A DNA stretch of 64,000 bases from Devosia insulae DS-56 (GTDB lineage: Bacteria; Pseudomonadota; Alphaproteobacteria; Rhizobiales; Devosiaceae), in NCBI RefSeq assembly GCF_000970465.2, contig NZ_LAJE02000072.1, forward strand, positions 1-64,000. Direction: 5' to 3'. The notes under the pieces were generated by a model. The model was not told where the DNA came from. It worked only from the letters and a program-made list of their open reading frames with translations, and searched no databases. The translations under genes and the position numbers were made by a program. This document shows, in pieces, positions 39,743 through 44,234 of this stretch (position 1 is the stretch's first letter; every line of letters begins with the position of its first letter).

Positions 39743-39829
39743 GTCTTGCCGACGCATGATGCATTTGAACTAATGCGCGGTGCCGTGAGTTACGTCACTC
39801 AACAGGCATCTGCCATGGGGAAGCCGCCG

Positions 39830-40954
39830 ATGGAGGACGACGACCTGGTCGACAGGATCTACGAGGCCGGGGCTGTTCCCGATCTCTGGCCGAGCGTGCT
39901 CGAAAGGCTGGGCGATCTCGCCAAGGTGGCGGGCACCGTGCTGTTCGCCATCCGCGGTGAGGCGGCCCACTGGACGGCGTCGCCGGGCTTGCACGAGATG
40001 TCGCGGGGCTATTTCGAAGGCGGCTACCCCGGGCATGACGATCGCACGGCGCGCCTGCTTGCCTACGATCATCCCGGCTTCGTCACCGACCTCGACGTGT
40101 TCAGCCGCGAGGAGTGGGAGGCCGATCCGATCCGCAGGGAATTCTTCGTACCGCGCGGGTTTGGTTGGGGCGTCGCGACCGGCATCAAGGTGCCGACCGG
40201 TGACCTCTTGATCTTCCACGGCGAGCGCCGGCTCGAGGATGGTCCAGTGGAGCGGCAAGTGGTGGAGCGTCTCGACCTGCTGCGGCCACACTTGGCGCGG
40301 GCGGCGCTGATGTCCGCACGCATCGCCTTCGAGCGCGCCCAGGGCGCCGTCGCGGCGCTCGAAATGGTGGGCATACCCGCCGCAGTTCTCGGACCGCGCG
40401 GTGCGGCCATCGCGACCAACAGCATGCTTGAGGCGCTGACGCCGTCGGTGGTGCAATCGCGCCCGACACGGCTGGCCCTCGCCAACCTGCGGGCCGACGA
40501 AATGCTGAGCACAGCCCTCGAGGCTGCGGAGGCCGGGCTGCATACCGGGCCGGTGCGTTCGATTCCCATTCCCGCAGGGAACGACAGTCCGGCGATGGTG
40601 GCCCACATACTGCCCATCCGTGCATCGGCTCGCGAAGTGTTCACCGGGGCAGCGGCGGTGTTGCTGATGACACCGGTGACCTTGCGCGAGTTGCCCGATG
40701 CCACGGTGATTCAGGGGCTGTTCGACCTGACGCCGGCGGAAGCGCGGATCGCTCGCGCGCTCGGCGGCGGCATGACCATCGGTCAGATTGCCTCGAGCAC
40801 CGGCGCCAGCGCGGCGACCGTGCGCAACCAGGTGCAGGCAGTGTTCGGCAAGACTGGAATGCACCGGCAGGCCGATCTGGTCGGCCTGCTGCAGGGGCTG
40901 GTGCCGACGGCTAGCGCCCCGATCCCACCGTCGCGATTGCCGCCGCGTAAGTGA
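39830..40954 (+). CDS. LuxR-type helix-turn-helix regulator
   Basis: 374 residues from ATG at 39830, after GGGGAAG; the frame is open to 39746 but the start used here fits the family (LVDRIYEAGAVPDLWPSVLERL). The N-terminal 300 residues lack a recognised ligand domain, though GFVTDLDVFSREEWEAD resembles autoinducer-type regulators' N-termini in Hyphomicrobiales. The C-terminal HTH is clear (LTPAEARIARALGGGMTIGQIASSTGA, then TVRNQVQAVFGKTG). It ends 44 bp inside the 3' end of the convergent E1-KAS III fusion gene. Confidence 0.85.
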   Translation: MEDDDLVDRIYEAGAVPDLWPSVLERLGDLAKVAGTVLFAIRGEAAHWTASPGLHEMSRGYFEGGYPGHDDRTARLLAYDHPGFVTDLDVFSREEWEADPIRREFFVPRGFGWGVATGIKVPTGDLLIFHGERRLEDGPVERQVVERLDLLRPHLARAALMSARIAFERAQGAVAALEMVGIPAAVLGPRGAAIATNSMLEALTPSVVQSRPTRLALANLRADEMLSTALEAAEAGLHTGPVRSIPIPAGNDSPAMVAHILPIRASAREVFTGAAAVLLMTPVTLRELPDATVIQGLFDLTPAEARIARALGGGMTIGQIASSTGASAATVRNQVQAVFGKTGMHRQADLVGLLQGLVPTASAPIPPSRLPPRK

Positions 40955-43900
40955 TGCCGCCACCGAAGGCGACGAGGCCGAGCCGGTCGCCCGGCTTGGT
41001 GCTCGGCAGCGCATCCATCAGCGCCAGCGGAATGGTCGAGGAACTGGTGTTGCCGAGGTTGCGGATGATCGAATGCGCCGGGCGGCCAGAGCGGCGGGCA
41101 ATGGCGTCGATGATGCGCTGGTTGGCCTGGTGCGGCACCATCAGGTCGATATCGTCCATGGTGATGCCTTCGGCGGCGCAGGCCGAGGTCAACGTCGCCG
41201 ACATGGCGCGGACGGCATCGGCGAACACCTCGCGGCCATTCATCTTGATGTAGCCCTCGCCGGCGCGCGGCACGCTCAGCAGCTCGCCGGATTCCGGCGC
41301 GCCGGCAATGGTCGGCTGGGCGAAGGTGAAGAGGGTCGGCTGTTCGTGACCCGTGCCCTGCACCAGCGAAGCGGTGGCGGCATCGGCGAACAGCACGGCA
41401 GTGTTGAAGTCGTTCTGGTCGAGCAGCGGCGAGAGCACTTCCGACGTCACCACCAGCACGCGGGCGCTCGGGTTATTGGTGACGTAGTCGCGGGCCTGCG
41501 CCAGGGCGTAGAGGTAGCCGGAGCAGGCGGCGTTGATGTCGTAGGCGGGCAGGCTGGTCCGGCCGACGGTGCTGACGGCATCGGCGACGCGGCAGGCCAG
41601 CGACGGGGTGATCACATCCGGCGTGCCGGTGGCCGCGATCACCAGGTCGATGTCGCCGATCTCGAGCTGCTGCTCGTCGAGCAATTTCTGTGTGGCCGAG
41701 ACGGCGAGGGAGAACACTGTCTCGCCGGGCTGTACCCAGCGACGGCTCTCGATGCCGGTGAGCTTGACGATGTCGCCGGCGTCGCGGGTCTGCCAGTTGC
41801 CCTTGAGGTCGGCGTTGTGCACCTTGCGGGCGCCGGTCACCCCGGCAATGCCGGCAACGCCGACGGAAACCTCGGCGCGGCCGATGCTGACGGGGGCAGC
41901 CTGCGGCGCGCTGCGGCGCTTCAGGATGGCTTTGTCGATGCGTTCGGCGGTGACGGTCGCCTGCTGCCGCGCCACCGAGGCGTCGGCTTCGACGAACATC
42001 AGCGGGGCGCCGACGGCGATCTTCTGCTTGGGTTCGACCGGGATCGACAGCACCTTGCCGGTAACCGTCGCCTGGACGTCGACGGCGGCCTTGGTGGCCT
42101 CAACCACCGCGACCAGATCGCCGGTCTTGATCATGTCGCCCGGCTTCACCAGCAGCTCGACAACCTCGACTTCGTCGTCGGCCGGGCCGGAGCCGATGGC
42201 GGTAATCGCGGCGGGACCGGTGTCGAGCTTGGGCGCTTCCCACGCGAGATCGAACTCGAGCAGCGCCGCGGCGGCTGCCATGATCCGGCGATAGGAGGGC
42301 AGGGTATCGATCTGCCGCTCGAACTGGAACGGCACGTGGATGTCGTCACGGGTGACGCGCCTGGCGCTGACCGGGATGCCGGCCTTCTCCATCACCGTCG
42401 CCATGACTTCGGCGCCGAAGCCGGCAGTGTGATTGTCTTCGTGCACCACCAGCAGGCGCTTGCTGCGGCGCACCGAGCGGAGCACCGCGTCCTCGTCCCA
42501 GGGCGAGATCGAACGGAGGTCGATCACATCGAGCTCGGCGCCGGCGCCGGACAGCGTCTCGGCGGCGAGCAGCGACTGGGTCAGCGGGTTGCCCCAGGTG
42601 ACCAGCGTCAGATCATTGCCCTGGCGCACCGCGCGGGCCTTACCGGGCACCACGAATTGCTTGGCCGTATCGTCCGAGGTGCGGCGGTCCGAGAGGTTCA
42701 GGCCGCTCTTGGGGTAGAGAAACACCGTCGGGCGCTTGCTCTGGAACGCGGCGTTGAGGAGGCCAGCGGCGTCGCCGGCGCTCGAGGGCATCACTACATC
42801 GATGCCGGGCACATGGGCGAGGATCGATTCGAGGGTCTGGGCGTGGAACGGGCCGAGGCCGGCCTTGTAGCCGCCGCAACTCACCATCAGGATCACCGGC
42901 GCCTGCCAGCTGCCATCGGTGCGCCAGTACATCGAACCGAGTTCGGAGATGATCTGGTTGAAGCCGAGCGGCAGGAAATCGGCGAACTGGATGAACGCCA
43001 CCGGCCGCTGGCCGGTCAGGGCGCGGCCGATCGAGGTGCCGACGATGGTCGATTCGGACAGCGGAGCGTTACGGACCCGGCCCGGGAAGGCGGTCGACAG
43101 GCCCTTGGTGACGCCGAACACGTCTCCCTTGGGGTCTTCGATGTCCTGGCCGAGCAGGTGCACTTCGCGGTTGGCGGCAAGCTGGTCGCGCAGCACCCGG
43201 TTGAGGGCCTCGCGCATCGTCAGGTTGGGCGCCTTGGCGTCGCCGCGATATTCCTTGGCGTGCGCAAATTCGGCGGGGTATGGCGCCTTGGCCGCGCCGG
43301 CGGTCTCAGGCACCGCTTCGGCGCGTGCTTCGACCACAGCCGCCGCCACTTCGGCGATCAGGCTGGTTTCGAGCTGCGCCAAAGCCGCATCGCCCATTTG
43401 CGACTCGCGCAGCGACTGCCGGATGGCTTCGAGCGGATCGCGGCTCTTGCCCGATTTCAGCTCGTCGGCAGCGCGGTACAGCGCCTGGTCATCGGCATTG
43501 GTGTGATCGGAGAGCCGCTCCAGCTCCATCAGCAGCAGCGACGGGCCGCGGGTGGCGCGGGTATGGGTCACCGCCGTTTCGAAGGCGGTGCGGGTGGCGG
43601 CCAGGTCGACACCGTCGACGCGACGGATCGGCAGACCGAGGAAGCTGTCGGCGGGCCCCGTGGGCAGATCGAAGAAGGTCTGGCCCGGGGTCTTGGTCGA
43701 AATCGCCCAGTTATTGTTCTGGATGACGAAGACCACCGGGGCGCCGGTGCGCACCGCTTCGCCGACCGCCTCGAGGAACTCGCCCTGCTGGGTGGTACCG
43801 TCGCCGACGCAGCAGATCACCACCGGAGAATCAGGGTGGAACTTCACGGCCTGGGCGTTGCCCACGGCATGCAGCGCATTGTTGCCGACCGGGCCGACCA

Positions 43901-44234
43901 TCGAGGCGACATTCAGCTCGCGGGCCGAATAGTGCGCGCTCATCTGGCGACCGGCGGAATGCGAGGGGCCGGTGGCGAGCAGGCTGCGGAAGAATTCAAC
44001 CAGTGGCAGGCCACGCGCCAGAAGCAGCGCCTTGTCGCGATAGTGCAGGTGCAGCCAATCCTGCTGGCCGAGATAATCGGCGATCAGTGCGGTCGACTCG
44101 TGGCCGGCGCCGGAGACATGGAAATGCGCAAGGCCCTGCTTGACCAGGTCTTGTTCCACGCGGTCAATCTCACGGGCGAGAAACATCGCCCGGTGCAGCC
44201 GCAGCATCGTCGGAATGTCTGAGGTCATCAGCAT
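40911..44234 (-). CDS. Fused 2-oxoacid dehydrogenase E1alpha/E1beta, lipoyl domain and KAS III
   Basis: 1107 residues in one chain. (1) E1alpha, about 10-300: HVSGAGHES, HYRDKALLLARG and the thiamine-diphosphate motif CVGDGTTQQGEF ending VIQNNNWAIS. (2) E1beta, about 335-650, with LSESTIVGTSIG and VVHEDNHTAGFGAEV. (3) Lipoyl domain, about 680-745, with the lipoyl lysine K715 in EATKAAVDV. (4) FabH-type ketoacyl synthase, about 785-1105, with the complete triad C904 (NAACSGY), H1035 (VPHQANQR) and N1062 (NLGNTSSS). There is no E2 acyltransferase core or E3. The inferred reaction is oxidative decarboxylation of a 2-oxoacid on the lipoyl arm, then transfer to KAS III for condensation with malonyl-ACP. 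It would start a branched or unusual acyl chain. Confidence 0.88.
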   Translation of the reverse strand: MLMTSDIPTMLRLHRAMFLAREIDRVEQDLVKQGLAHFHVSGAGHESTALIADYLGQQDWLHLHYRDKALLLARGLPLVEFFRSLLATGPSHSAGRQMSAHYSARELNVASMVGPVGNNALHAVGNAQAVKFHPDSPVVICCVGDGTTQQGEFLEAVGEAVRTGAPVVFVIQNNNWAISTKTPGQTFFDLPTGPADSFLGLPIRRVDGVDLAATRTAFETAVTHTRATRGPSLLLMELERLSDHTNADDQALYRAADELKSGKSRDPLEAIRQSLRESQMGDAALAQLETSLIAEVAAAVVEARAEAVPETAGAAKAPYPAEFAHAKEYRGDAKAPNLTMREALNRVLRDQLAANREVHLLGQDIEDPKGDVFGVTKGLSTAFPGRVRNAPLSESTIVGTSIGRALTGQRPVAFIQFADFLPLGFNQIISELGSMYWRTDGSWQAPVILMVSCGGYKAGLGPFHAQTLESILAHVPGIDVVMPSSAGDAAGLLNAAFQSKRPTVFLYPKSGLNLSDRRTSDDTAKQFVVPGKARAVRQGNDLTLVTWGNPLTQSLLAAETLSGAGAELDVIDLRSISPWDEDAVLRSVRRSKRLLVVHEDNHTAGFGAEVMATVMEKAGIPVSARRVTRDDIHVPFQFERQIDTLPSYRRIMAAAAALLEFDLAWEAPKLDTGPAAITAIGSGPADDEVEVVELLVKPGDMIKTGDLVAVVEATKAAVDVQATVTGKVLSIPVEPKQKIAVGAPLMFVEADASVARQQATVTAERIDKAILKRRSAPQAAPVSIGRAEVSVGVAGIAGVTGARKVHNADLKGNWQTRDAGDIVKLTGIESRRWVQPGETVFSLAVSATQKLLDEQQLEIGDIDLVIAATGTPDVITPSLACRVADAVSTVGRTSLPAYDINAACSGYLYALAQARDYVTNNPSARVLVVTSEVLSPLLDQNDFNTAVLFADAATASLVQGTGHEQPTLFTFAQPTIAGAPESGELLSVPRAGEGYIKMNGREVFADAVRAMSATLTSACAAEGITMDDIDLMVPHQANQRIIDAIARRSGRPAHSIIRNLGNTSSSTIPLALMDALPSTKPGDRLGLVAFGGGITYAAAIATVGSGR

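Follow-up and report, generated by a model that had tools for sequence, protein, structure and literature searches.

A 64,000-nucleotide stretch of DNA from the soil bacterium Devosia insulae DS-56 (contig NZ_LAJE02000072.1, positions 1 to 64,000), referred to here as the window, contains a gene in which the E1alpha and E1beta parts of a 2-oxoacid dehydrogenase, a lipoyl domain and a beta-ketoacyl-acyl carrier protein (ACP) synthase III (KAS III) are joined in one polypeptide. An initial annotation of the window had reported a single open reading frame (ORF) with four modules complete by motif, and both statements were borne out: the frame is open at 40911–44234 on the minus strand, the Pfam domains score above cut-off, and the catalytic residues are conserved across homologous fusions. 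The homologs came from a species-genome scan in which 115 relatives were confirmed and the best 80 kept, giving 79 loci. Counts out of 80 refer to the window plus these 79 loci. KAS III counts out of 79 refer to the fusions with an intact KAS part, and locus L036 is left out of them because it breaks before that part. The fusion gene has the following features.

40911–44234, minus strand: E1alpha-E1beta-lipoyl-KAS III fusion ORF; ATG start, 1107 residues, single open frame
43308–44192, minus strand: E1alpha module, residues 15–309, with the thiamine diphosphate (ThDP) motif Gly144-Asp145 and Asn174 (Pfam PF00676, E1_dh; residues identical in 80/80 fusions)
42699–43223, minus strand: E1beta pyrimidine-binding module, residues 338–512, with Glu394 and His464 (Pfam PF02779, Transket_pyr; residues identical in 80/80)
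42318–42644, minus strand: E1beta C-terminal module (Transketolase_C), residues 531–639 (Pfam PF02780)
41997–42176, minus strand: lipoyl domain (Biotin_lipoyl), residues 687–746 (Pfam PF00364; E-x-x-K-[AS] in 80/80)
42090–42092, minus strand: Lys715, predicted lipoylated residue, identical in 80/80 together with Glu712
41868–41984, minus strand: variable linker from the lipoyl domain to KAS III, residues 751–789 (low pLDDT; dN/dS 0.12–0.41 in three pairs)
40932–41867, minus strand: KAS III module, residues 790–1101 (Pfam PF08545/PF08541; FabH fold, Z about 42)

All six Pfam domains of the protein exceed the curated cut-offs and follow the order E1alpha, E1beta (two domains), lipoyl and KAS III (ACP_syn_III at residues 898–969 and ACP_syn_III_C at 1019–1101). 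The E2 core (PF00198), the E3-binding domain and the PP-binding domain are absent from the seven Pfam families matched on the chain at E ≤ 0.001. Likewise, Pfam finds no ACP domain on the chain; an ACP gene elsewhere was not properly searched for. The KAS part scores 261 bits to NCBIfam model PRK09352 (beta-ketoacyl-ACP synthase 3; cut-off 249) and 221.9 to TIGR00747 (fabH), which is below the cut-off of 292.1. An AlphaFold model, computed from 38 aligned fusions, has a mean pLDDT of 88.4 and a pTM of 0.69, and only residues 1–4 and linker residues 776–787 fall below a pLDDT of 50. In structure comparisons, model residues 335–661 match E1beta chains (best Z 44.9, 1um9_B) and residues 787–1104 match FabH chains (Z about 42); the E1alpha part was matched to solved E1alpha chains by sequence. 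In the GDG motif, the third position varies among the fusions (Ser in L074).

What primes the KAS III module? In FabH, the adenine of coenzyme A (CoA) stacks between Trp32 and Arg151 (E. coli numbering), according to the accessible part of PMC4606726. The residues of the fusion at these and related positions are listed below.

41523–41525, minus strand: Cys904, KAS III nucleophile (79/79 fusions)
41130–41132, minus strand: His1035 of KAS III (79/79)
41049–41051, minus strand: Asn1062 of KAS III (79/79)
41772–41774, minus strand: Asp821, replacing FabH Trp32 of the CoA-adenine stack (no Trp in 79/79)
41406–41408, minus strand: Phe943, replacing FabH Arg151 of the CoA-adenine clamp (no Arg or Lys in 79/79)
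41607–41609, minus strand: Thr876, replacing FabH Phe87, the primer-size gatekeeper (Thr or Ser in 77/79)
41115–41117, minus strand: Arg1040, equivalent of FabH Arg249 (79/79)

The 79 fusions were aligned with stand-alone KAS IIIs encoded in carrier genomes, 30 of them best-scoring and 20 divergent. The 30 are the best PF08541 scorers, hence mostly ordinary FabH, and one of 31 loci (L128, a fragment) was dropped from that set. Trp32 occurs in none of the fusions but in 30/30 best-scoring and 6/20 divergent enzymes, and Arg or Lys at position 151 occurs in 0/79, 26/30 and 14/20, respectively. Arg249, which we take to be an ACP-side residue of FabH like the basic residues at positions 214, 256 and 257, is present in 79/79 fusions, 30/30 best-scoring and 4/20 divergent enzymes. 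The combination of no Trp32, no Arg or Lys at 151 and a retained Arg249 is found in every fusion and in none of the 50 stand-alone enzymes (0/30 and 0/20). Furthermore, position 257 is Arg in 74/79 fusions (Lys or Arg in 18/30 best-scoring enzymes) and position 256 is Lys or Arg in 52/79 (11/30). In other words, the CoA side is lost and the ACP side is mostly kept, as expected of an enzyme that receives its primer from a tethered arm but still uses malonyl-ACP. One alternative is that the module is an ordinary acyl-CoA-primed FabH fused by chance, with a separate E2 as the partner of the E1-lipoyl part. The FabH fold match, the PRK09352 score and the retention of Arg36 in 32/79 fusions (position 36 is mixed, with Leu in 43) fit this alternative. 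However, the CoA clamp is absent in 79/79, the fusion is retained over large distances, and no E2 core was found in the flanks examined (full in 46/79 loci; divergent cores could be missed), which makes an ordinary FabH quite improbable.

Judging from sequence, the fusion is probably a self-contained 3-oxoacyl-ACP synthase primed by a 2-oxoacid. Its E1 half would carry out ThDP-dependent decarboxylation of the 2-oxoacid and reductive acylation of the lipoyl group on Lys715, and the lipoyl domain would swing on flexible linkers to the C-terminal KAS III. There, Cys904 would take the acyl group directly from the lipoyl arm, which would replace acyl-CoA, and KAS III would condense the acyl group with malonyl-ACP to give a 3-oxoacyl-ACP for fatty-acid synthesis. 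The ordinary cellular lipoamide dehydrogenase (E3) would then reoxidise the dihydrolipoyl arm. Among these steps, we infer the lipoylation of Lys715, the direct lipoyl-to-Cys transfer, the use of malonyl-ACP and the provision of E3 in trans. A wider proposal has close to an even chance of being correct: that the lipoyl arm is the direct acyl donor to a CoA-independent KAS III, so that a 2-oxoacid and malonyl-ACP yield 3-oxoacyl-ACP without acyl-CoA, an acyl-ACP primer or E2 catalysis, and that the gene is a portable single-gene starter system spread between phyla. The initial annotation had also suggested a lipoyl-to-KAS III hand-off that bypasses acyl-CoA. The lost CoA clamp, the Arg249 kept in 79/79 and the conservation of the fusion with matched divergence speak for it, whereas direct transfer without an E2 core and the use of malonyl-ACP are proposed rather than observed.

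The module could instead be an acyltransferase and not a condensing enzyme, passing the lipoyl-bound acyl group to ACP or another acceptor. Acylating ketosynthases are known for cervimycin, xenocyloin and nonactin (available text of PMC4578411), and Lys214 is lost in the fusions. Yet the full Cys-His-Asn triad and Arg249 are present in 79/79, and this role is improbable, if less so than that of an ordinary FabH.

The synthase proposal needs a lipoylated arm that can be recycled. A lipoyl site is told apart from a biotinyl site by the Met beside the Lys of the latter. All 80 fusions have the motif E-x-x-K-[AS] and no Met next to the Lys, so the site looks lipoyl and not biotinyl. The host genome encodes LipA and two lipoamide dehydrogenases, all above cut-off; thus, the host is able to lipoylate the arm and to reoxidise it. 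In 2-oxoacid dehydrogenase complexes, reductive acylation by E1 consumes the disulfide form of the lipoyl group. Acyl transfer to Cys904 would leave the dithiol, and the dihydrolipoyl arm would need reoxidation, so that E3 is expected in trans. The earlier remark that the E2 core and E3 are missing thus stands for the E2 core on the chain, as judged by Pfam, but E3 appears to be available elsewhere in the genome.

The search for the same domain architecture, put forward in the initial annotation as a check, recovered homologous fusions across several phyla. All 79 loci (the best 80 of 115 relatives) carry the fusion, at 43–97% identity to the window protein, the closest being that of Devosia sp. 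Root413D1 (97%). In L004 and L073, a contig end truncates the fusion. The alphaproteobacterial carriers belong to Devosia, the Rhizobium tropici/rhizogenes group and Rhodobacterales. Other carriers are Neisseriales and other Betaproteobacteria, Francisellaceae/Thiotrichales, a Rheinheimera, Planctomycetota and Verrucomicrobiota, and many carrier genomes are metagenome-assembled. Within the genus, 12/18 genomes have the fusion (one copy, in G007, is split in two pieces), compared with 0/18 in the rest of the family and 0/24 in the rest of the order. A spread sample of 199 genomes of the phylum gave the fusion in the own genome only (E ≤ 1e-180), and 3/77 genomes of one planctomycete order have it at E ≤ 1e-150, the starting genome included. 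This rare and patchy occurrence across phyla suggests horizontal spread. On plasmids, 0/1010 matching records cover 80% of the fusion protein, and a lipoyl-KAS III query gave 0/366; neither the fusion nor an intermediate was seen there.

The modules may share one history. In trees, a single clade holds the KAS III parts of all 79 fusions, apart from 51 stand-alone sequences; another holds the E1 parts of 30 fusions, apart from 31 other E1s. Both splits have a support of 1.0. When 30 fusions are compared in pairs, the distances in the E1, lipoyl and KAS parts correlate at 0.82–0.87. One clade for each half together with matched distances is consistent with modules that travelled together. In three usable Devosia-type pairs (a pair with L007 was excluded for indel misalignment), dN/dS is 0.065–0.098 in all four domains, and the linker exceeds the domain range in 5/6 comparisons (0.088–0.41). 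These ratios indicate that all four domains are under purifying selection; together with the homologous fusions and the single clade of each half, they mark the fusion as a maintained unit, not a chance joining. A non-functional fusion or an assembly artefact would account for the broken copies (L036, and G007 in two pieces); it is contradicted by the conservation of single long ORFs in several phyla and by the low dN/dS, and its probability is negligible.

A 203-residue ORF at L079:6213-6824, just upstream of an intact fusion, is 62% identical to residues 30–187 of the window protein and is a probable remnant of a tandem duplication. The planctomycete bin G091, the genome of L063, has two KAS III matches in fusion-length frames of 1166 and 1176 residues (contigs C78 and C223) and may hold two fusions.

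Several observations weigh against the synthase proposal. The position of Lys214 is Lys or Arg in just 2/79 fusions against 30/30 best-scoring stand-alone enzymes, so the ACP side is mostly, not wholly, kept. Both clamp residues are also absent in 3/20 divergent stand-alone KAS IIIs, and thus clamp loss alone is no proof of lipoyl priming. Because the 79 fusions are one clade, their clamp loss may be a single event and not 79 independent ones. At least one further KAS III match is present in 49/49 carrier genomes tested, so the fusion is not the sole candidate initiator of fatty-acid synthesis, and a role as sole initiator was rejected. The literature searched held no precedent for a KAS III accepting straight from a lipoyl arm, and the known or proposed relatives transfer via an E2 core, an ACP or both. 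The fusion loci share no conserved operon. Finally, no E2-core or E3 match was found in the flanks of the 79 loci (full in 46/79). The E2 queries were two own-genome E2s and one Streptomyces lipoyl-E2-ACP segment, the latter without any match at E ≤ 1e-6 in the 79 loci. The sole match of the scan lies within the L074 fusion, on the lipoyl part of the query. As a control, the own-genome queries were set against the Streptomyces E2 core and failed to detect it, so divergent cores could escape.

Which 2-oxoacid would prime the enzyme? An E1 tree compared 30 of the 80 fusions with 31 others, namely 27 other E1s and four from Streptomyces plasmids (L110 was dropped; four reference tips carry one subunit only or a partial one). 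The Streptomyces plasmid E1s form the nearest clade to the fusion E1s (split support 1.0), a sister relationship that assumes a root among the other E1s, and the deeper order of pyruvate dehydrogenase (PDH) and branched-chain 2-oxoacid dehydrogenase (BCKDH) is weakly supported. In the three annotated Streptomyces loci (L112, L113 and L165), the E1 gene lies directly 5' of a gene annotated as a non-ribosomal peptide synthetase (NRPS). The synthase scanned in L112 (L112:16963-20562) starts with lipoyl, E2 core, ACP and ketosynthase (KS) domains, an acyl-loading arrangement inside a megasynthase. The clusters of L112 and L165 hold pabB, chorismate mutase family and ornithine cyclodeaminase family genes, a content that recalls streptogramins. 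The nearest E1 relatives therefore seem to serve an assembly line rather than catabolism, and the fusion appears to share the plan of these systems with the E2 and ACP left out.

The starter of group A streptogramins is isobutyryl. A branched primer for the fusion is plausible and is our tentative choice, although no conserved pathway neighbour fixes the 2-oxoacid. The same mechanism could use a small straight 2-oxoacid such as pyruvate or 2-oxobutyrate, giving acetoacetyl- or 3-oxopentanoyl-ACP and initiating fatty-acid synthesis without acetyl-CoA. This version is less likely, and none of the points for or against it is decisive. The E1alpha site that reads SPL or SPI in human and Thermus BCKDHs reads GPV or TPV in most of the 30 aligned fusions, but the PDH-type NGIVGAQ is also absent from them. 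Annotated bacterial BCKDHs read SGNV or SGNL at this motif, so it does not sort substrates cleanly. The streptogramin-like setting of the nearest E1s speaks against a straight primer, as does the gatekeeper: 77/79 fusions have Thr or Ser there, a state found in 5/30 best-scoring and 0/20 divergent stand-alone enzymes. Residue 87 is Phe in E. coli FabH, which uses acetyl-CoA, and Thr in the M. tuberculosis enzyme, which uses long-chain primers (PMC3734052, whose accessible part does not mention branched primers). Pepteridine, which is made by a related system, has been linked to pyruvate and 2-oxobutyrate supply (accessible part of PMC5384830), in favor of a straight primer.

The host genome has three near-full-length E1alpha matches (the fusion and one each on contigs C285 and C292) and two E2 cores, on the same two contigs. 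From the E1/E2 pairing and lengths, C285 would encode PDH and C292 2-oxoglutarate dehydrogenase. With the two E2 cores read in this way, the host has no evident branched-chain dehydrogenase. At most two E2 matches were found in 22/28 carrier genomes, a count given without genome completeness or a non-carrier control set. A separate feature of the E1beta module is residue 414 (A-F-I-Q-F-A-D-F; 42990–42992). The residue preceding I/L-Q-F is Phe in 30/30 aligned fusions and invariant in the 38-fusion alignment, whereas most other aligned E1betas carry Glu there.

The genes around the fusion differ between lineages. In the window, one ORF overlaps it.

39746–40954, plus strand: LuxR-like regulator ORF, convergent, with a 44 bp overlap with the 3' end of the fusion

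This ORF has weak NCBIfam matches below cut-off and no Pfam match, and no link between it and the function of the fusion was found. Reading function from an operon was rejected since no neighbour common to different lineages was seen, and the lineage-specific neighbours disagree with one another. An M23 peptidase gene is a neighbour in nine Devosia-group loci. The fusion is preceded, on its own strand, by an ORF of the fatty-acid hydroxylase family (PF04116, by a Pfam scan in L012) in 25 Rhizobium-type loci; the gap is about 190–320 bp in 24 of them and 1133 bp in L031, and the gene is a possible lipid link. Eight Pirellulales loci (L042, L043, L048, L052, L053, L054, L055 and L058; Pfam-scanned in L042, the rest by homology) have a tandem bacterial microcompartment (BMC) ORF with two shell-protein domains, 7–22 bp downstream of the fusion or overlapping it. 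In G074 (L043) and G089 (L058), these two domains are the sole BMC matches in the genome, so there is no evident compartment. The BMC protein was rejected as a general partner: among 77 genomes of the order, 18 were listed with a relative spanning the entire BMC query and 3 with the fusion (E ≤ 1e-150), and both occur together in the starting genome only. On an uncultured Neisseriaceae contig, a class I/II aminotransferase ORF (L080:7079-8248) about 11 bp downstream of the fusion could supply the 2-oxoacid.

If the synthase proposal is true, a single gene would lead from 2-oxoacids, possibly those of branched amino acids, to the starters of fatty-acid synthesis without CoA, and would do so in a host that has no evident branched-chain dehydrogenase. 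The lipoyl arm would join the acyl donors of KAS III, and the gene would be usable on its own as a module for engineering lipids that are branched or odd. A single-chain E1-lipoyl-KAS III was not found described in the literature searched, although subscription papers were mostly outside the reach of that search.

How does the fusion compare with known systems? It has folds and catalytic residues in common with FabH and with the E1 of PDH and BCKDH. FabH, however, has the CoA clamp that the fusion lacks, and PDH and BCKDH make acyl-CoA through a separate E2. In the naphthyridinomycin system NapB/NapD (attributed to Peng et al. 2012, which PMC5384830 and PMC9268379 cite), a PDH-like E1 reportedly gives a two-carbon unit to an assembly line; unlike the fusion, it reportedly uses a ketose and has an NRPS partner. 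The E1 of the Streptomyces xanthii plasmid (L112) is also a single-chain E1alpha-E1beta (670 residues) and lies beside a lipoyl domain and a ketosynthase. The Streptomyces plasmid E1s are 38–44% identical to the fusion in E1alpha and about 41% in E1beta. In L112, a lipoyl domain, an E2 core, an ACP and a KAS I/II-type KS are on the synthase, whereas the fusion has a KAS III and neither E2 nor ACP.

Photorhabdus BkdABC, as described in the accessible parts of PMC4578411, PMC4901931 and PMC3838401, is alike in that decarboxylation of a 2-oxoacid feeds iso-fatty acids. BkdABC forms a condensed product, a 5-methyl-3-oxohexanoyl thioester, according to PMC4578411, but Bkd is described as making isovaleryl-CoA in PMC3838401. 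Compared by description and not by sequence, BkdABC consists of three genes, and BkdB is or contains an ACP that needs a phosphopantetheinyl transferase, whereas the fusion is one chain with a lipoyl domain only and no ACP. In the pepteridine system (Photorhabdus plu2792-plu2799; available text of PMC5384830), the acyl group of a 2-oxoacid is likewise proposed to go to a carrier and not to CoA, with E3 in trans. Its E2-like subunit, however, is fused to T and C domains and acylates a pterin, and that text mentions no KAS III. The same text proposes carrier priming for pepteridine, naphthyridinomycin, N-acyl amides and pristinamycin IIA. Thus, the loading of 2-oxoacid-derived acyl groups onto carriers is already known with E2 or ACP parts, and what looks new in the fusion is a direct lipoyl-to-KAS III transfer within one chain.

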